Source of the DNA: a candidate division WOR-3 bacterium
GTDB lineage: Bacteria; Hydrothermota; Tepidihabitantia; Tepidihabitantales; Tepidihabitantaceae
DNA length: 34,527 nt
Direction of reading: 5' to 3'
Assembly: GCA_039801245.1 (NCBI GenBank)
Contig: JBDRUF010000015.1
Coordinates: forward strand, 1 to 34,527
Below are positions 6,207-18,450 of the stretch, piece by piece. The stretch's first letter is position 1; each line of letters begins with the position of its first letter. Under the pieces are notes generated by a model. That model worked only from the letters and a program-made list of their open reading frames with translations. It searched no databases and had not been told where the DNA came from. A program made the position numbers and the translations under genes.

Positions 6207-7445
6207 CTATTCATACCGCAAAGCGGTTATGGGGTTGAGTCTTGCCGCCCGAGATGCTGGATAAATCCCAAAGAAAATGCCAACAGTAGCAGAAAATCCA
6301 AAGCCAAGGATAATAGTCCAGAGCGGTGCCGCTGCTCTGAGATGAGCCGTAATTTCAACAACCTTGGCAATGCCCAGACCAAGTGCGATTCCAATTGCAC
6401 CGCCGGCAAGGGCAAGTAACACTGACTCCAAAAGGAATTGATAAAGAATGTCACGGGTGGTAGCACCCAGCGCCTTTCTCAAGCCAATCTCGCGGGTCCT
6501 TTCTGCTACCGCAACGAGCATAATGTTCATAATCCCGATCCCGCCGACAAGTAGGGAGATGGCGGCAACCGCAATCATCACGATGAAGGCGACCCGGGTG
6601 ATGTTACGGTATATTTCCCTGAGCGTTTCTTGGGTATTGATGCCAAAGTCGTCAGGCTTGTCATAGCCCAGACCGTGGCGCCGGCGCATAAGTTCCCGAA
6701 CCTGGTCAATAACCTTCTCCAGCGCGACCCCCTTTTTTGGTGCTATCATAATGCTCATACTGTGGGCAAGTTCGCCATACCCCTTCTGGGGCGCAAAACC
6801 CTTTTCAAATGCTGAGAGCGGGATAATAATGATATTGTCCATTGTCTGACCCAAAAAACTGCCTTTTCGTTGCAGGGTGCCGATGATGGTAAAGCTTTTG
6901 CCTTCGATGATGAGTTTCTTGCCCAGCGGGTCCTCGTCAGGAAAGAGGTTGTCCACAACATAGCCACCAATCACACATACCTGCCTTTTGCGCAGACTGT
7001 CATCGGAGTTAATGAATCTGCCAGTCTCAATCCTGTAATTGGCAATTGCTGCATAGGACGGGGTAACACCCCCAATCTCAATCCCTGTTACCTTTCGGCC
7101 GCGATAGTTGAGCCGGCTAATCTGCCTTCCGCGAAACGGCGCCACATTTTCCACTAATGGCAGACGGGCGATTGCCAAGGCGTCTCCAATAGTTAGGTCG
7201 GGTCTTTTTGATATCTCCTCCCAGTCAATTCGTCCCATACCCCAAGACACCTTCTGAAGGATGATTGAATTGGAACCAAGGGAGGCGATCTGGCGCTCAA
7301 CCTCATAGTTCATTCCCTGAATTAAAGAGATGATGGCGATAACGGTCATTACACCGATGATGATACCAAGAACGGTCAGAAAGGAGCGCAGACGGTTGGT
7401 GTGAAATGTGCCTAAGGCAAGTTTGAAAAGCTCGTAAAAGGGCAT
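6207..7445 (-). CDS. ABC transporter permease, MacB/FtsX type
   Basis: A 412-residue permease with the MacB arrangement. One transmembrane helix lies near residues 20-44 (LTVLGIIIGVMTVIAIISL), followed by a large periplasmic MacB_PCD-type domain. A C-terminal FtsX domain has three helices around 280-305, 335-360 and 380-402, including the conserved GGIGIMNIMLVAVAERTREIGLRKA. Proteins of this type act as mechanotransmission units that push substrates through a TolC-like duct without carrying them across the inner membrane. It is the last gene of the export cluster, 2 bp after the ATPase gene, and is preceded by adaptor and outer-membrane genes. The substrate is unknown. Confidence 0.9.
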   Translation of the reverse strand: MPFYELFKLALGTFHTNRLRSFLTVLGIIIGVMTVIAIISLIQGMNYEVERQIASLGSNSIILQKVSWGMGRIDWEEISKRPDLTIGDALAIARLPLVENVAPFRGRQISRLNYRGRKVTGIEIGGVTPSYAAIANYRIETGRFINSDDSLRKRQVCVIGGYVVDNLFPDEDPLGKKLIIEGKSFTIIGTLQRKGSFLGQTMDNIIIIPLSAFEKGFAPQKGYGELAHSMSIMIAPKKGVALEKVIDQVRELMRRRHGLGYDKPDDFGINTQETLREIYRNITRVAFIVMIAVAAISLLVGGIGIMNIMLVAVAERTREIGLRKALGATTRDILYQFLLESVLLALAGGAIGIALGLGIAKVVEITAHLRAAAPLWTIILGFGFSATVGIFFGIYPASRAARLNPITALRYE

Positions 7446-7447
7446 TT

Positions 7448-8116
7448 TTACTCCGGAACTACCCTGCCATCCCTGAGTCTGACAATTCGGCGGGCGTGTT
7501 GGGCAACCGTCTGGTCGTGGGTAACAATAACAATAGTGTTGCCTTCAGCCGCCAGCCGGTCAAAGAGACGCATTATCTCTGCCCCGGTTTTGGAGTCAAG
7601 GTTACCGGTAGGTTCGTCAGCAAGAATTACGGTGGGATGATTGGCAAGGGCACGGGCGATTGCCACCCTTTGCATCTCACCACCAGAAAGTTCATTGGGA
7701 CGGTGATGAAGCCGCTCAGCGAGCCCGACCATCTCTAAAAGTTCTTGGGCGCGCCTAATCCGTTCCTTGCGGCTAACGCCGGCATAAATTAAAGGGAGGG
7801 AGACATTGGCAAGCGCGCTCAGCCGAGGGAGCAGGCTGTAGTTCTGGAAAACAAATCCGAACGCCTTGTTGCGCAGCCGGGCAAGTTCGCGGTCACCTTT
7901 CCCCCGGGTGTCCTCGCCGTTAAAGAGATACCGACCTGAATCCGGGGTATCAAGACAGCCAAGGATGTGCATCAAGGTGGATTTGCCCGAGCCGGATGGA
8001 CCCATCAGGGCAACATACTCACCCTTTTCAATTTCCAGGTCAACCCCATCAAGGGCGCGGACAACGGTTTTGCCCAGAGAGTATGTCTTGACAATTTGTT
8101 CAGTTTTAATCAGCAA
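7448..8116 (-). CDS. ABC transporter ATP-binding protein, MacB/LolD type
   Basis: A 222-residue ATPase of the LolD/MacB/FtsE class. Walker A GPSGSGKST is at residues 39-47, the Q-loop is VFQNYSLLPRLSALANV, the signature is LSGGEMQRVAIARAL, Walker B with the glutamate is VILADEPTGNLDS, and the H-loop is IVIVTHD. It would energise the adjacent permease on the cytoplasmic side. It lies 3 bp after the adaptor gene and 2 bp before the permease, so the three are clearly cotranscribed. ATPase and permease are separate chains here, unlike fused E. coli MacB. Confidence 0.92.
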   Translation of the reverse strand: MLIKTEQIVKTYSLGKTVVRALDGVDLEIEKGEYVALMGPSGSGKSTLMHILGCLDTPDSGRYLFNGEDTRGKGDRELARLRNKAFGFVFQNYSLLPRLSALANVSLPLIYAGVSRKERIRRAQELLEMVGLAERLHHRPNELSGGEMQRVAIARALANHPTVILADEPTGNLDSKTGAEIMRLFDRLAAEGNTIVIVTHDQTVAQHARRIVRLRDGRVVPE

Positions 8117-8119
8117 GGC

Positions 8120-9220
8120 TCAATCGCCCTTTACCTCTTTGGGATTAACCTGGGTGCCATCGGTTAAACGGGAAAGGAGTTTGTAGGGTCCGATGATGAC
8201 CTCATCGCCCGGGCCAAGACCCTCAAGGATTTCAATCTCGGTGTCTGATGACTTGCCGGTGCGAATTGGTGTTAAGACCGCCCTGCCCTTTTTCACCACA
8301 AATACCGTCTCGGTCTCCTTTCCTTTAAAAACCCTTCTTCCCACCGCCTGAATCGGCACCACCAAAACTGAGTCCAAGCGGGCGGTGACGATTTCGGCAT
8401 GAACCGTCATCCCCGGACGGAGGGAAGCGTTGGTGCCTTCTATCGCTATTTCCACCTCAAAGTTGGTGGCGGTCTGTTCAGTGGTGAGCGTCTTCTGCAC
8501 CGGCATATAGCCAACCCTAATCACCTCACCGGTGAAGGTGGTGTCTGGGAGGGCGTCAACGGTTATCGTTGCCCTTTGCTTGGGCTCAAGCGCAACCACA
8601 TCGGTTTCATCAACCTCAACCAGCGCCTCCATCTCGGAAAGGTCGGCAATGACCAAAAGTACCGTCCCGGAATAGTTCATCGTGCCGATGATGGCGGTCT
8701 CACCCTCTTTGATGTTCACCTTGGTCACCACACCGGCGATGGGCGCACAGATGACAGTTTTCTCATACTGGTCTTGTGCCTGGAGAAATTGGGCTTCAGC
8801 CACCTCATAAGCGGTTTTCGAAGCCTCAAACTGCTCTGGTGGGATAAGACCCCGGGCATAAAGGCTTTCCACCCTGGCATGCTTGAGCCGGGTCTGATTG
8901 AACTGGGCACGGGCAAGCACCAGTTGCGCCTCGTAACCCTGACGGTCCATCTCCAAGAGCGTATCACCCCGCCGGACCCAATCCCCTTCCTTTACCCGCA
9001 CCCTTTTGACCACACCCATTACCTGGGCCTGCAGATTGACTTGGGCACGGGCACGCAAGGTGCCGGTGGCGCTTACCTTTGAAAGTATTGAGCCATACCC
9101 CACCACCTTTGTCTCACACTGAACCCCAGCCTCTCTCCGGGAGCGGTTAAGGATAATAAAGACAAAAAGTAATACGAGGATGCCGATGATTATCAGGGTT
9201 AGTTTTAAGGGTCTGTTCAA
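8120..9220 (-). CDS. Periplasmic adaptor (membrane fusion) subunit, MacA/HlyD type
   Basis: A 366-residue protein with an N-terminal membrane segment at about residues 7-25. It then follows the adaptor order: a lipoyl half-motif (LQAQVMGVVKRVRVKEGDWVRRGDTLLEM), an alpha-helical hairpin (about 95-160), the second lipoyl half (APIAGVVTKVNIKEGETAI), and beta-barrel and membrane-proximal domains (ATITVDALPDTTFTGEVIRVG, LRPGMTV). It would bridge the inner-membrane ABC pair to the TolC-like duct encoded immediately upstream. Gaps are 13 bp on one side and 3 bp on the other. Confidence 0.9.
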   Translation of the reverse strand: MNRPLKLTLIIIGILVLLFVFIILNRSRREAGVQCETKVVGYGSILSKVSATGTLRARAQVNLQAQVMGVVKRVRVKEGDWVRRGDTLLEMDRQGYEAQLVLARAQFNQTRLKHARVESLYARGLIPPEQFEASKTAYEVAEAQFLQAQDQYEKTVICAPIAGVVTKVNIKEGETAIIGTMNYSGTVLLVIADLSEMEALVEVDETDVVALEPKQRATITVDALPDTTFTGEVIRVGYMPVQKTLTTEQTATNFEVEIAIEGTNASLRPGMTVHAEIVTARLDSVLVVPIQAVGRRVFKGKETETVFVVKKGRAVLTPIRTGKSSDTEIEILEGLGPGDEVIIGPYKLLSRLTDGTQVNPKEVKGD

Positions 9221-9233
9221 TTTCCCTCCTTTT

Positions 9234-10496
9234 TTATTTCCATGCGGTTTTGCCTAAAAGATAGGCAATCTCCGCGGACTGGATATAGGTGTCGCAAAGG
9301 GCAGAAAGATACGTTGCCTCAGCCTGGGTTAAACCGATTTCAGCCTCTAACAGTTCTGATAAAGAAAGTGCTCCCAGGCGGTACTGGGTGGCGGCAAGTT
9401 CATATAACTCCCGGTTGAGTTCAAGGTTCAGTTCTGCCTGCTCGTAACGCCTCCGTGCCTCTTCATAGCCAAGGATCGCCCCTTGCGCAGCCGCGCGTAA
9501 CTGCAGCCGGGCACGGGCAAGTGCAGCACGGGCACGACGGGAGCCGGCAAGGGCGTCGCCGATGTTCAAAATAAAGGTTTTGATGTCAGCAATGGGGAAT
9601 GTTAAACTGATACCGTCAACGCGAGTGGATTTCTCCTGCCAGTGCTGATAGCTGCGGGGAAAGGTGGTGTCGCTATATTGATAGGAGCGATAGAGATTGA
9701 ACCCGGGCAGAATCCGAGCAAAGGAGGCAAGAAGGTTGATGGCGGCAACCATTTTCAAATCCTTCAGCATCCTGACCCCGGGGTTAAATTTTTCCATCAT
9801 TAAAAGGAGGCTATCAGGGTCGTGAACTGAGAGCTCTGCCGGTTGCCCCAGTTCCTGTTTTGCCCTGAGGGGTCTTCTGGAACTGATGCCAAGACGGGCG
9901 CAGAGGTTTGACTGGGCAAGGGTAAGCGCCTTTTCCGCACTTAACAGGTTCAGTTGTGCCTGGGAGTAAAAAGCCTGACTGCGGAGGAGGTCAATTTTTG
10001 CCGCCTGACCAAGGCGAAACCTTTCGGCTGTTAATCTTTGGCTTTCCTCTGCCTGAGCGAGCGCCTTTTGGGCACCCGCAAACAAAAGTTGGCTTTTCAG
10101 CAACTGGAAGTAGTCTGTGGTAACATCATAAACCAGCCTTGAGATTTTTTCCCGCGCATCAAGGGAGTGGTAACAGAAGTTAATAATGCCATTAATTAGA
10201 CCGGCATAAACCAAAGGGTCAAAAACAACCTGAGTGATGGTGATATCACCTTTCCAGGCTGTTGCCAGTTCGTTTTTTGCACCGGTTAGAGTGGCGGAAG
10301 GTGTTGGTAATAGATTACTTATACCCCTCCCCAGGCTTACAGCGGCATCCACCCTGGAGGCGGTCCCCTCCACCACCCCCGGGCTTCCTTTGAGCGCCAG
10401 TTGTAATGCCTCATCAAGGCTGAGATAAAGGGTATCAGTAGAGGTGGTGGATATTAAGAGAAAGGAGAGCGCAATGGCAAATTGAATTACCGGCAT
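9234..10496 (-). CDS. TolC-family outer membrane efflux protein
   Basis: A 420-residue protein with a signal-peptide-like N-terminus (about 1-20) and two OEP repeats rich in alanine, leucine and glutamine. It starts with TLYLSLDEALQLALKGSP, typical of the first TolC helix, and the second repeat contains ARLQLRAAAQGAILGYEEA and LAATQYRLGALSLSELLEAE. It should form the trimeric outer-membrane and periplasmic duct for the downstream MacAB-like transporter. Its ATG shares one base with the stop of the YIP1 gene. The length is short-to-normal for bacterial OEP proteins. Confidence 0.88.
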   Translation of the reverse strand: MPVIQFAIALSFLLISTTSTDTLYLSLDEALQLALKGSPGVVEGTASRVDAAVSLGRGISNLLPTPSATLTGAKNELATAWKGDITITQVVFDPLVYAGLINGIINFCYHSLDAREKISRLVYDVTTDYFQLLKSQLLFAGAQKALAQAEESQRLTAERFRLGQAAKIDLLRSQAFYSQAQLNLLSAEKALTLAQSNLCARLGISSRRPLRAKQELGQPAELSVHDPDSLLLMMEKFNPGVRMLKDLKMVAAINLLASFARILPGFNLYRSYQYSDTTFPRSYQHWQEKSTRVDGISLTFPIADIKTFILNIGDALAGSRRARAALARARLQLRAAAQGAILGYEEARRRYEQAELNLELNRELYELAATQYRLGALSLSELLEAEIGLTQAEATYLSALCDTYIQSAEIAYLLGKTAWK

Positions 10497-11254
10497 CAGT
10501 CCGGAAAGGCAAGTCCGCCGGAAAGGGTGCTAAGTCCTGCAAGAATAAGGACATAAATAAACCAGAGACCGAAAACAAGGGCTGAGGTGCGCTTTAAATC
10601 AAGGTTAAAGATTACCTTCAGCCCGAGGCTGGTAAGCCCCAACTCCCAGAGGGTAAAGATATCTATGCAGGCAAGAACCCCTTTTAGGTAAAGTGGTGCG
10701 GAGGGTGCAAGCAATAGGAGGCTGGTAGTGGCGGTAATTTTGTTAGTGCTTAATATCAACAGGACCCGGAAAACCGCTGCCGGAATGCGGACCAGGGCGC
10801 TGTTGGTGGTGATTGCCCAGAGCCTGCCAAAACTTGAACCCGCGCCCAAAAGCGGTAAAAGGAGGTTGAGGACTGTTGTCCAGATGAGGAGCTGCAATGC
10901 GGACCAGATGGTGGCGGGCAGGCTGCGGACAAGGAAGCGGAAAAAGAGGTTTATCTTTGATGCCCGCTCATATAAATCCAATTCCACCTGCGCGGTCTTT
11001 TCAATCCGCTCAATGGCGGCATCACGCTGGTCAGAAGGCATCTTGCCCGTTTCCACCTGCTTTTCAATGAACCCCTTTACCCGGTTGATACGGTTTTCAG
11101 TGGCATTGATAAGTGTCTGCCTGGGTAAAATGATAACACTCAGGGTGCCAATAAAAAGGGGCAAAATAAGGGCAAGTATAAAAGGAGCCAGCCAATCCGG
11201 CTTTTCCTTTAGCTGGGCAAAGCGGTGGGTTGGCGAAAAAATTATGTGAAACAC
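10496..11254 (-). CDS. YIP1-family multi-pass membrane protein
   Basis: A 252-residue protein with a short N-terminal amphipathic part (FSPTHRFAQLKEKPDW) followed by about five or six hydrophobic segments (about 22-44, 105-135, 145-165, 168-185, 190-210, 226-248) and a charged loop at about 50-95. The N-terminus (F-x-P-x-x-x-F-x-x-L-x-x-x-P-x-W) and the helix layout match bacterial YIP1 domain proteins, whose role is poorly known. It lies between the propeller gene (3-bp gap) and the TolC gene (1-base overlap), so it may assist the export system. That link is an inference from position. Confidence 0.7.
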   Translation of the reverse strand: MFHIIFSPTHRFAQLKEKPDWLAPFILALILPLFIGTLSVIILPRQTLINATENRINRVKGFIEKQVETGKMPSDQRDAAIERIEKTAQVELDLYERASKINLFFRFLVRSLPATIWSALQLLIWTTVLNLLLPLLGAGSSFGRLWAITTNSALVRIPAAVFRVLLILSTNKITATTSLLLLAPSAPLYLKGVLACIDIFTLWELGLTSLGLKVIFNLDLKRTSALVFGLWFIYVLILAGLSTLSGGLAFPD

Positions 11255-15038: not shown

Positions 15039-16319
15039 ATGAAGGTTTTGTGTATCGGTAGTGGTGGCAGAGAGCATGCCCTTGTTTACAGTTTTGCCCG
15101 TAAGGGGCATCAGGTTTTCTGCGCGCCCGGGAATCCTGGGATTGCCAGGCTGGCTGAATGCGTTGAGATTGACCCAGCCGATTTTGCCGGTCTTATCGCC
15201 TTTGCCCGGAGACACAGCGTTGATTTGACCGTTGTCGGTCCAGAGGCGCCTTTGGTTGCGGGAATTGCCGATGAGTTTGAGAAAAAGGGGCTGGTTCTTT
15301 TCGGACCGAATGCCCAGGCTGCTCTGTTGGAGGGTGATAAGGGTTTTGCCAAAAACCTTTTGAAAAAATATGGGATCCCCACCGCGAGGTTTGAGGTGTT
15401 TGACGATTTTGAAAAGGCGGTTGATTATGTAAAGAGAGGCGGCTTTCCGGTTGTCGTCAAGGCGTGTGGTCTGGCATTAGGCAAAGGGGTGAAGGTTTGC
15501 GAAAATGAGGAGGAGGCGATAGGATTTCTCACCATTTTGATGAGGGAGGGCAGGTTGGGTGAGGCGGGTTCGCGGGTGGTGATTGAGGAGTTTCTTAGCG
15601 GTGAGGAGGCTTCAATCATTGCGCTCTGTGATGGCGAGCGGTTGCGGTTTCTGGCTCCTTCCCAGGACCATAAAAGGCTTTTGGACAATGATGAGGGTCC
15701 AAATACCGGTGGGATGGGTGCTTATGCGCCCGTGCCCGCGGTGACACCTCTTGTTTTTGACCAGATTGTGAGGCTGATATTTGTGCCCCTTTTGGATGCT
15801 TTGAAAAAGGAGGGGATTGTTTATCGGGGTGCGATTTATGCCGGTCTGATGCTTACCGCTGATGGTCCTAAGGTTTTGGAGTTTAACTGCCGTTTTGGTG
15901 ACCCAGAGGCGCAGGTGATTCTGCCCATCTTTGATGATGACCTTGCCGAGTTGTGCCTTGCCTGTGCGCACGGAAGGTTGGGTGAGGATGGGGAAAGGAT
16001 GCCTAAGCCCCAAAAATGGGCTTTGTGCGTTGTCGCGGCAGCAAAGGGGTACCCGGGCACATATGAAAAGGGGTTGCCCATTTCCGGTGAAGTTGAGGGC
16101 GGGGAGAGCACAATTGTTTTTCATGCCGGGACGAAGATGGTTGAGGGTAAATTTTTTACCAGTGGTGGCAGGGTTTTAGGGGTAACCGGGATCGGAAAAA
16201 CCCTTTTTGAGGCAAGGGAGCGTGCCTATTATGGCATCGGGCTCATCCATTTCCCCGGTATGCATTACCGCCGCGACATCGGTGCAAAGGGGCTAAGGTA
16301 TCTCCAAGAGGAGCGGTGA
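15039..16319 (+). CDS. purD: Phosphoribosylamine-glycine ligase (GAR synthetase)
   Basis: A 426-residue ATP-grasp enzyme for the second step of de novo purine synthesis. It begins MKVLCIGSGGREHAL, the standard PurD N-terminus, and continues with FCAPGNPGIA, VVGPEAPLVAGIAD, the ATP-grasp core (GIPTARFEVF, VVKACGLALGKGV, VVIEEFLSGEEASIIALCDG), the PSQDHKRLLDNDEGPNTGGMGAYAPVP signature, and FNCRFGDPEAQVILP. Length and domain order are typical. It leads a run with the phosphatase fusion, acyl-CoA dehydrogenase, lpdA and perhaps lipB. No other purine gene is nearby. Confidence 0.97.
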   Translation: MKVLCIGSGGREHALVYSFARKGHQVFCAPGNPGIARLAECVEIDPADFAGLIAFARRHSVDLTVVGPEAPLVAGIADEFEKKGLVLFGPNAQAALLEGDKGFAKNLLKKYGIPTARFEVFDDFEKAVDYVKRGGFPVVVKACGLALGKGVKVCENEEEAIGFLTILMREGRLGEAGSRVVIEEFLSGEEASIIALCDGERLRFLAPSQDHKRLLDNDEGPNTGGMGAYAPVPAVTPLVFDQIVRLIFVPLLDALKKEGIVYRGAIYAGLMLTADGPKVLEFNCRFGDPEAQVILPIFDDDLAELCLACAHGRLGEDGERMPKPQKWALCVVAAAKGYPGTYEKGLPISGEVEGGESTIVFHAGTKMVEGKFFTSGGRVLGVTGIGKTLFEARERAYYGIGLIHFPGMHYRRDIGAKGLRYLQEER

Positions 16320-17288
16320 GTGGCAAAGGTAGTAAAGAGGTCACGGGTTAAGCCGCAGGCGGTTGTGAAGGCGCTTGAGAGCGGGGCGGTGATGATGCCC
16401 CTTTTTGGTGGGTGTGCGGTTTTGGGATTAAACCCTAAGGAGATTAGAGAGAGGCTGGGTGGGGCTTACCGGTTGGTGCCGCCTGATGCTCTCGGGTTGA
16501 GTGGGGAGATCAGGCAGGTGTTACAGAAGGAGGCGGTGGCGGTTTTAAAGGATGGAGAGGGGCTTGCCTTGGGATGGGAGCCTTTTACCGAGGCGATGCT
16601 AAAGAAAGTGGGCGCAGATTTATGGTTTGGTCTGCCTGGGGCGGGAGAAGAGCCTGAGGAGCTGATGAACGATTTTGGCGACTGGCTGAAACTGGTGGTT
16701 ATTGATAAAGAGTGGGGATTGGGACCAACGGTAATTGACTTTTCCGGCGAAACACCAACCGTTTTGCGTAAGGGGAGATTGGGAATTTTGGGGCTTGAAG
16801 CCATCTTGAGGAAAAGGGTTCGTCTTGGACCCGGGTTGTATTTTTCGGTTCTGGTTGTCTGCACCGGTAACTCCTGTCGGAGTCCAATTGCGGCCGGGCT
16901 TTTGGTCCAAGAACTGAAGGGGCTGCCGGTAGTAATAACATCGGCAGGGGTTGCCGCACCGGTTGGGAGACAGGCAACCGGCAATGCGATTAATGTTGCA
17001 ATGGAGATGGATATTGACATCTCCGGACATCGGGCAAGACAGTTAAATAAGGAGATGATTGATACCGCGGATTTGATTCTGGTGATGGAGCCGGGACAAA
17101 GGTCCTGGATAGTTAATCTATTGCCAGAGGCGGATGTTAAGGTGAGGCTTTTGGGTGGTTATCCAGAAAAGGAGGTTGAGATTCCTGACCCGATAGGGAG
17201 GTCAGTTGAGTTTTACCGCCAGACCGCTCTTTTAATCAAAGCCGGGGTTTTAAAGGTGACAGCGGAGTTAAGGGAGCGGTTTAAATAA
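16320..17288 (+). CDS. Fusion of a degenerate YrdC/TsaC-like domain with a low-molecular-weight protein phosphatase
   Basis: A 322-residue protein with a GTG start directly after the purD TGA and a GAGG ribosome site. The C-terminal part (about 175-322) is a low-molecular-weight phosphatase: the C-x5-R loop CTGNSCR is at residues 181-187, and the general acid is Asp290 in DPIG. The serine at 185 stands where YwlE-type arginine phosphatases have threonine and classical tyrosine phosphatases usually have isoleucine. The N-terminal part (about 1-174) resembles YrdC/Sua5: GAVMMP, LGL and the late GPTVIDFSGETPTVLRKGRLGI match the family's PSTVVDFS-x-ILRKG region, but the KxR and other nucleotide residues are not seen. 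In Bacillus separate sua5- and ywlE-type genes are neighbours, which supports the reading. Confidence 0.75.
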   Translation: MAKVVKRSRVKPQAVVKALESGAVMMPLFGGCAVLGLNPKEIRERLGGAYRLVPPDALGLSGEIRQVLQKEAVAVLKDGEGLALGWEPFTEAMLKKVGADLWFGLPGAGEEPEELMNDFGDWLKLVVIDKEWGLGPTVIDFSGETPTVLRKGRLGILGLEAILRKRVRLGPGLYFSVLVVCTGNSCRSPIAAGLLVQELKGLPVVITSAGVAAPVGRQATGNAINVAMEMDIDISGHRARQLNKEMIDTADLILVMEPGQRSWIVNLLPEADVKVRLLGGYPEKEVEIPDPIGRSVEFYRQTALLIKAGVLKVTAELRERFK

Positions 17289-17298
17289 AAGGAGGTGT

Positions 17299-18450
17299 AT
17301 GGAATACTTTTTTACCGATACCCAGAAGGAAATCAGGGACCTGGCAAGAAGGTTTGCGGTTGAAAAAATAAAGCCGGTGCGTCAGGAACTTGACCGGACC
17401 GGTGAGTTTCCCTTTGCCTTGATGAAGGAGATGGCAGAACTGGGACTGATGGGAATCTACATACCGGAGGAGTATGGTGGTTTTGGTGGCGGCATCCTGG
17501 AGATGTGTCTTGTGGTTGAGGAGCTTTCCCGGGTTGATGGTGCGGTAGCACTGGGCTATGCGGCGTGCGGGTTGGGCACATTCCCCATCATCCTTGCCGG
17601 CACCGAGGAGCAGAAAAGGAGGTTTCTGCCGAGGCTGGCGCAAGGGGAACTGGCGGCATTTGCCATCACCGAGGCGCAGGCTGGTTCCGATGCCGGTAAT
17701 GTCAAGACAAGGGCAAGGCGTGAGGGCGATTACTATGTGCTTAACGGCACCAAGCAGTTCATCACCAATGGCAGCGTGGCAAAGATTTATACTGTTATCG
17801 CCTCCACCGACCCGGAGCGAGGTGCGCGTGGTCTTTCCGCATTTATCATTGAGGATGGCACGCCCGGTTTCACCTATGGCAAGATTGAGGACAAGATGGG
17901 GATTCGCTGCTCCAAGACCGCGGAACTGGTCTTTCAGGACTGCCGGGTGCCAAAGGAAAATCTGTTGGGGGGGGAAGAGGGGCTGGGATTTATCCAGACG
18001 ATGAGGACATTTGACCGAACAAGACCGGGTGTGGGCGCGCAGGCGGTTGGCATCGCTCAAGGTGCGCTTGATGAGGCGCTGGAATATGCCAAGACCAGGG
18101 TTCAGTTTGGACAGCCGATTGCCAGTTTCCAGGCGATTCAGCTGATGCTGGCGGATATGGCAATTCAGATTGAGGCGTCAAGGGCGCTGGTCTATGAGGC
18201 GGCGCGGGCAGCAGATGCCGGGGTAAAAAACATCTCGGGTCTTGCCGCGATGGCAAAGGTGATGGCCTCTGATACGGCGATGCGGGTGACCACCGATGCG
18301 GTGCAAATCTTAGGTGGTTATGGTTATATGAAGGATTATCCGGTGGAGAAGATGATGCGTGATGCCAAGATTACCCAGATTTATGAGGGCACAAACCAGA
18401 TTCAGAGGCTAATCATCGCTTCGGAATTGATTAAGGGGACACTTTGGTAA
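17299..18450 (+). CDS. Acyl-CoA dehydrogenase (short-chain type)
   Basis: A 383-residue FAD enzyme that makes the 2,3-trans double bond of acyl-CoA. It shows the standard three-part fold: the helical N-terminus (TDTQKEIRDLARRFAVEKI), the ACD signatures FAITEAQAGSDAGNVKT and QFITNG in the middle, and the C-terminal helices with QFGQPIASFQAIQ and QILGGYGYMKDYPVEKMMRDAKITQIYEGTNQIQR split across two motifs. The catalytic base is Glu363 in YEGTNQIQR, placed as in butyryl/short-chain enzymes. A strong Shine-Dalgarno (GGAGGTG, 17291-17297) precedes the ATG. No etfAB or thiolase genes are in the window; the electron acceptor is therefore unknown. Confidence 0.93.
   Translation: MEYFFTDTQKEIRDLARRFAVEKIKPVRQELDRTGEFPFALMKEMAELGLMGIYIPEEYGGFGGGILEMCLVVEELSRVDGAVALGYAACGLGTFPIILAGTEEQKRRFLPRLAQGELAAFAITEAQAGSDAGNVKTRARREGDYYVLNGTKQFITNGSVAKIYTVIASTDPERGARGLSAFIIEDGTPGFTYGKIEDKMGIRCSKTAELVFQDCRVPKENLLGGEEGLGFIQTMRTFDRTRPGVGAQAVGIAQGALDEALEYAKTRVQFGQPIASFQAIQLMLADMAIQIEASRALVYEAARAADAGVKNISGLAAMAKVMASDTAMRVTTDAVQILGGYGYMKDYPVEKMMRDAKITQIYEGTNQIQRLIIASELIKGTLW

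Follow-up and report, generated by a model that had tools for sequence, protein, structure and literature searches.

An open reading frame of a candidate division WOR-3 bacterium, with a GTG start and a product of 322 amino acids (positions 16320..17288, + strand), encodes a degenerate YrdC/Sua5 domain followed by a low-molecular-weight phosphatase. Positions are those of the window, i.e. the whole stretch of DNA analysed (34,527 nucleotides; contig JBDRUF010000015.1 of assembly GCA_039801245.1). The protein is probably an arginine phosphatase with a dead YrdC module, derived from a bifunctional Sua5-phosphatase ancestor of which the fused YrdC was replaced by a separate Sua5.

The fusion gene and its locus

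The GTG start codon comes immediately after the stop codon of purD (15039..16319, +; TIGR00877, 509 bits), and AGGAG, a likely ribosome-binding site, is placed 6 nt before the GTG, within the end of purD (16309..16313, +). The next gene downstream (17299..18450, +) was assigned by family match to the acyl-CoA dehydrogenases; such a gene is directly 3' of the fusion in the window's own family (f1) and in the families f3 and f5. In the synteny comparison, every class member inspected had purD at most three genes before the fusion: immediately before it in f1, f3, f5, and f9, and separated from it by purE in f6, f8, and f10 (with one further gene in f6). This common purD locus supports the orthology of the intact and degenerate fusions described below. 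An assembly or frameshift artefact was ruled out, as the fused frame is present in independent genomes (11 others of the family). No match was obtained with PADLOC on the window. Elsewhere in the window (6207-11254, -), genes for a MacB-like permease, a small protein, an MFP adaptor, a TolC-like protein, and a YknW-like membrane protein stand in a row, which looks like a tripartite efflux operon.

The YrdC-like half

Residues 1-174 (16320..16841, +) were matched by no YrdC model of Pfam or NCBIfam, with scores under the cut-offs of PF01300 and TIGR00057. The profile made from 13 family members matched a PDB structure of E. coli YciO (E=9e-5), and hhalign comparison of the family N half with the N halves of the intact WOR-3 fusions gave E=3.4e-10 over 177 columns (controls: best of 40 column shuffles, E=0.08; reversed profile, E=0.61). 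The sequence signal is concentrated in the last ~60 columns; the front alone gave E=0.036, so its assignment to YrdC depends on the predicted structure. The AlphaFold2 model of residues 1-175, for which the input alignment consisted of degenerate family members only and held no intact YrdC sequence, had a pLDDT of 91.4. When this model was searched against the PDB with Foldseek, ranks 1-26 were all YciO, Sua5/TsaC2, YrdC, or HypF; the best match was YciO (1k7j, E=2.3e-7), and the highest TM score was that of Pyrococcus abyssi Sua5 (0.69). The model of the whole fusion (pLDDT 90.5, pTM 0.85) was of high confidence in both domains. Judged from the models and the profile comparison, the N half is predicted to be a genuine YrdC-fold domain, and a chance resemblance was rejected on the basis of the shuffle and reversal controls together with the Foldseek result. 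The preliminary description had noted the resemblance of these residues to YrdC/Sua5 and had proposed comparison of a predicted structure with TsaC, an outcome unlike YrdC being evidence against it; the fold obtained was that of YrdC.

In Sua5, the KxR and SxN residues serve for ATP and T33/S181/R195 for threonine (P. abyssi numbering; PMC10321239). At the KxR/SxN positions, the residues aligned in the window protein are A, R, L, and G, so that the ATP tetrad is not preserved; the Arg falls at R58, where the alignment is poor. From the threonine set, T33 and S181 are gone, and R195 alone is kept, as Arg150 (16767..16769, +), which is invariant in the alignment and is the clearly retained catalytic-set residue of this half. 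The pattern is the same in all 13 members of f1, where T33, K56, S143, and N145 are gone, S181 is changed to Pro, and R195 is kept; an Arg is aligned at R58 in 11 of them, again in the poorly aligned stretch. The claim of the preliminary description that the KxR and nucleotide-binding residues are missing accordingly stood for T33, K56, S143, N145, and S181 but not for R195, and the poorly aligned Arg at R58 should be kept in mind. The alignment did not reveal intact catalytic residues, which would have spoken against degeneration, most of the set being absent; an unusually divergent yet catalytically intact YrdC was ruled out by the same residue comparison.

The N half shares with Sua5/TsaC (TIGR00057, PF01300) the predicted YrdC fold and the C-terminal motif PTVIDF...LRKG, and it is orthologous by position to the intact fused Sua5 domains of WOR-3; it differs in that the equivalents of the KxR lysine, SxN, T33, and S181 are gone and in that no YrdC family model scored. 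The closest solved structure by both profile and fold, E. coli YciO (1k7j), is likewise a paralogue of YrdC that does not act as TsaC in vivo. However, YciO is free-standing and largely retains the TsaC active-site residues (PMC12506659), which the N half of the window protein does not in the residue alignment. Across 13 genomes, 11 positions of the N half are invariant, the Arg195 equivalent among them, and the motifs GPGPT...RKG and WFGVP are conserved specifically in the family. Residues 156-174 (16785..16841, +), which form the last YrdC helix and the junction to the phosphatase according to the alignments and DSSP, are among the best-conserved stretches of this half.

Pairs with usable synonymous distances gave dN/dS values of 0.20-0.35 (f1) and 0.15-0.25 (f3) for the degenerate N half and of 0.13-0.27 (f1) and 0.05-0.10 (f3) for the phosphatase half. 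The N half is under purifying selection, although in most pairs the phosphatase half is the more strongly constrained of the two; folding constraint alone could be the source of the signal in the N half.

Intact fusions, decayed fusions, and a separate Sua5

The named relatives all belong to candidate division WOR-3, now phylum Caldifarciminota. The distribution of the fusion was surveyed within WOR-3 (147 phylum genomes searched), for which most of the genomes are fragmented metagenome assemblies. Among the 18 genomes of f1, 12 have the full fusion, and in a 13th (G001) it is split over two contigs. In three others (G003, G004, and G005; L152, L150, and L151), the phosphatase stands without the N half at the corresponding locus downstream of purD; these three group with the window protein and its nearest fused relatives in the phosphatase tree (98/91), a position beside the fused genes which suggests that the N half was lost. 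Full-length Sua5/YrdC-phosphatase fusions were found in many further families, and the version in the other families of the class is ~360 aa long. The YrdC half is intact in 31 class fusions: all of them have T33, K56, S143, N145, S181, and R195, and 29 also have R58; a representative is over the TIGR00057 cut-off (141 bits vs 123). An intact fusion such as L148:4840-5910 has the same domain order, short junction, and purD locus as that of the window, whereas its YrdC half keeps the catalytic set, passes TIGR00057, and is ~35 aa longer.

The fused YrdC is degenerate in 19 class members, comprising the window's order and a further two genomes. Outside f1, these are G064 (f5), G060-G062 (f3), and, partly degenerate, G029 and G031 of the distant family f9. 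The three f3 genomes were called degenerate by position and architecture only: at the same purD locus, an N half of ~160 aa stands before the phosphatase (L138:11214-12128, L139:10272-11192, and L140:8793-9713), for which no convincing profile match to the intact or the degenerate set was obtained (best E=0.0014). In f9, outside the window's order, SxN, Ser181, and the Arg of KxR are lost in G029 (L143:3951-5027) and G031 (L141:4154-5206), and the sister genome G030 is intact; the PF01300 scores are 73, 66, and 132 bits, respectively. The fused YrdC of G029 and G031 is a natural intermediate stage of decay.

A separate Sua5 was found in the genome of the window (G000:C24:17104-17631; PF01300, 173.7 bits; TIGR00057, 191.8 bits with a cut-off of 123.2). 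Its catalytic set is complete, and HypF is additionally present in the genome. The second intact tsaC for which the preliminary description had proposed a search is therefore present. Such a separate Sua5 occurs in 16 of the 19 class genomes with a degenerate fusion; in the remaining three (G009, G061, and G029), all of which are fragmented, a second Sua5 was not found. In the 31 genomes with an intact fusion, no further full-length YrdC was found apart from frames of HypF size, and the additional matches in G027, G036, and G037 were partial. Because related genomes are not independent, the joint occurrence of decay and a second Sua5 counts for no fewer than two distinct instances, one in the window's order and one in G031. 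The separate proteins are of ~215 aa (f1, f5, and most of f2) or ~330 aa (f3, G031, and G058), and form a clade of their own apart from all fused copies (99/98; the distant rows have long branches). An origin of the second Sua5 as a recent duplicate of the fused YrdC is unsupported, as the separate copies group apart from the fused ones.

The preliminary description had placed the fusion first and the degeneration of YrdC later. This order is supported by the intact fusions across the phylum, the decayed ones in the window's order, and the three phosphatase-only members. The sua5-ywlE neighbourhood of Bacillus, from which the fusion had been explained, is not needed as its source, given the age of the fusion within WOR-3. 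The ancestor would have been a bifunctional protein, old in WOR-3, that combined a YwlE-like phosphatase with a working Sua5/TsaC, the enzyme with which tRNA t6A synthesis begins. TC-AMP synthesis would, in the window's lineage, have passed to the separate, catalytically complete Sua5/TsaC, and afterwards the fused YrdC half would have lost its ATP- and threonine-binding residues while the fold, the Arg195 equivalent, and the junction to the phosphatase were kept.

The phosphatase half and the role of the fused domain

Residues 175-322 (16842..17285, +) form the low-molecular-weight phosphatase domain, with YwlE as the best Foldseek matches (4etn and 4pic). Pfam LMWPc (PF01451) matched residues 177-308 (E=1.9e-26; 93.4 bits, cut-off 23.2), where the C-x5-R-S P-loop and the D-P general acid are present. 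The P-loop CTGNSCR (residues 181-187; 16860..16880, +) contains, by homologue alignment, the nucleophile Cys181, the phosphate-binding Arg187, and Ser185 at X5, and Asp290 (17187..17189, +) is the general acid of the DP motif. The preliminary description had proposed a complete active site of Cys181, Arg187, and Asp290 in this half; the LMWPc match and the invariance of the three residues in 12 homologues bear this out. By the mechanism of this phosphatase class, Cys181 would attack the phosphate, Arg187 would hold it, and Asp290 would protonate the leaving group.

Residue X5, which separates arginine phosphatases (Thr) from tyrosine phosphatases (Ile) (PMC8001253), bears on the substrate. Ser185 had been assigned to this position beforehand, correctly so given the P-loop CTGNSCRSP, and the Thr of the YwlE type is not there; the known arginine-phosphatase signature is therefore lacking, which is a point against the reading as an arginine phosphatase. 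Across the fusions, X5 is mostly Thr or Ser, in a few Cys or Met, and never Ile; it is Ser, Cys, or Met in the window's family, and Thr in most fusions of f10, f6, and f3 and in f5 and f7. In comparison with the arginine phosphatase YwlE/PtpB of B. subtilis, G. stearothermophilus, and S. aureus, the window protein has in common the LMW-PTP fold, the CTGNxCRSP loop, the DP general acid, and the presence of the kinase McsB in the genome, and differs by Ser for Thr at X5 and by the fused YrdC-fold domain; its arginine-phosphatase activity is putative.

McsB was found in 61 of the 65 class genomes, among them all 42 with at least 90% completeness and at most 5% contamination. That of the window's genome is full-length (E=1.7e-87 to Protein-arginine kinase; equivalog cut-off passed), and the genome also encodes a ClpC-like ATPase (817 aa, two Clp_N). 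Bacillus subtilis possesses McsB and ClpC, and as a control it gave no match in the PF00217 and PF02861 searches, for which absences are weak evidence. At the mcsB locus (L155:6294-7827 in G000:C14), a short gene with zinc-ribbon-like and UVR motifs, resembling mcsA, precedes mcsB; the pair stands after other genes, by eye a lysyl-tRNA-synthetase-like and a membrane-permease-like frame, rather than with clpC. As McsB is present in all high-quality class genomes and the fusion is the sole LMWPc protein of the window's genome, the favoured reading is an arginine phosphatase that carries YrdC as a pseudoenzyme module, and phospho-arginine put on by McsB is most likely the substrate, as far as can be read from the sequences.

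A phospho-tyrosine substrate is also possible, because the window's genome (G000:C41) encodes a tyrosine-kinase-like protein (TIGR01007, 168 bits, over the cut-off). The phosphatase half would then be a tyrosine phosphatase resetting a tyrosine-kinase exopolysaccharide system of the Wzc/Wzb type, with the YrdC half dead. That X5 is Ser, not Thr, suits this alternative, as do the best curated NCBIfam matches, Wzb and Etp at 85 bits, though these are far under the cut-offs (243 and 247). However, TIGR01007 is over the cut-off in only 40 of the 65 class genomes, fewer than have McsB; for example, G016, G064, and f6 hold the fusion, nearly all with McsB, and lack the tyrosine-kinase family. The best structural match of the whole-fusion model is YwlE, and the occurrence of Thr at X5 in other families, with Ile in none, also argues against it. 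On balance, we regard the tyrosine phosphatase as unlikely.

For the N half, the role as a regulatory or binding module that the preliminary description had suggested is possible on the present sequence data. Within the reading as an arginine phosphatase, the dead YrdC half would most likely be a non-catalytic stabiliser or targeting module, for instance toward proteins of the t6A pathway or other McsB-tagged proteins. It may instead be a functionless remnant, slowly decaying and tolerated since the phosphatase onto which it folds is useful, with no part in regulation or binding. The complete absence of the N half in G003, G004, and G005, where the phosphatase without it indicates that the module is dispensable, is consistent with a remnant, as are the generally weaker selection (for the pair G007/G008, dN/dS of 0.27 in the N half vs 0.14 in the phosphatase half) and the strong divergence of the front, which in f3 has gone past profile recognition. 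Against these stand the dN/dS of 0.15-0.35 with a frame open across the whole family, which folding constraint could match, the invariant positions that include the Arg195 equivalent, and the high model confidence in both domains; a mere remnant is possible, if somewhat doubtful. The conserved GPGPT...RKG and WFGVP and the invariant Arg195 equivalent could also be taken to mean that the domain, as a divergent YrdC like YciO or that of HypF, is active or binds a ligand by an altered chemistry, via Arg150 and the GPGPT and W-x-G-x-P motifs. Since the KxR lysine, both SxN residues, T33, and S181 are absent, and YciO by contrast has kept most of its active site, we consider this very improbable.

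The t6A enzyme TsaD of B. subtilis, the stability of which depends on ClpCP, is under the control of McsB/YwlE (PMC7546277). This control makes a fusion of TC-AMP synthase and phosphatase functionally sensible, with TsaD as the suggested partner. More specifically, the degenerate YrdC might be a pseudoenzyme adaptor by which the t6A pathway gates or steers the arginine phosphatase (by docking to TsaD or one of its partners, or by sensing of a small ligand), inherited from a phylum-wide enzyme that joined t6A synthesis to the reversal of McsB tags; we put this forward as a long shot.

We found no description of the Sua5-phosphatase fusion architecture in our literature search. The fusion is apparently the usual source of TC-AMP synthase across this candidate phylum. 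It attaches a predicted eraser of protein phosphate to the enzyme that starts a universal tRNA modification and is a physical counterpart to the genetic link between McsB/YwlE and TsaD via ClpCP in B. subtilis. The clade also displays the birth of a pseudoenzyme, from intact domains through partly decayed ones (G029 and G031) and fully decayed but folded ones to the phosphatase alone; most decayed fusions occur together with a second Sua5, so what becomes of a fused domain once it is redundant can be traced and tested here.
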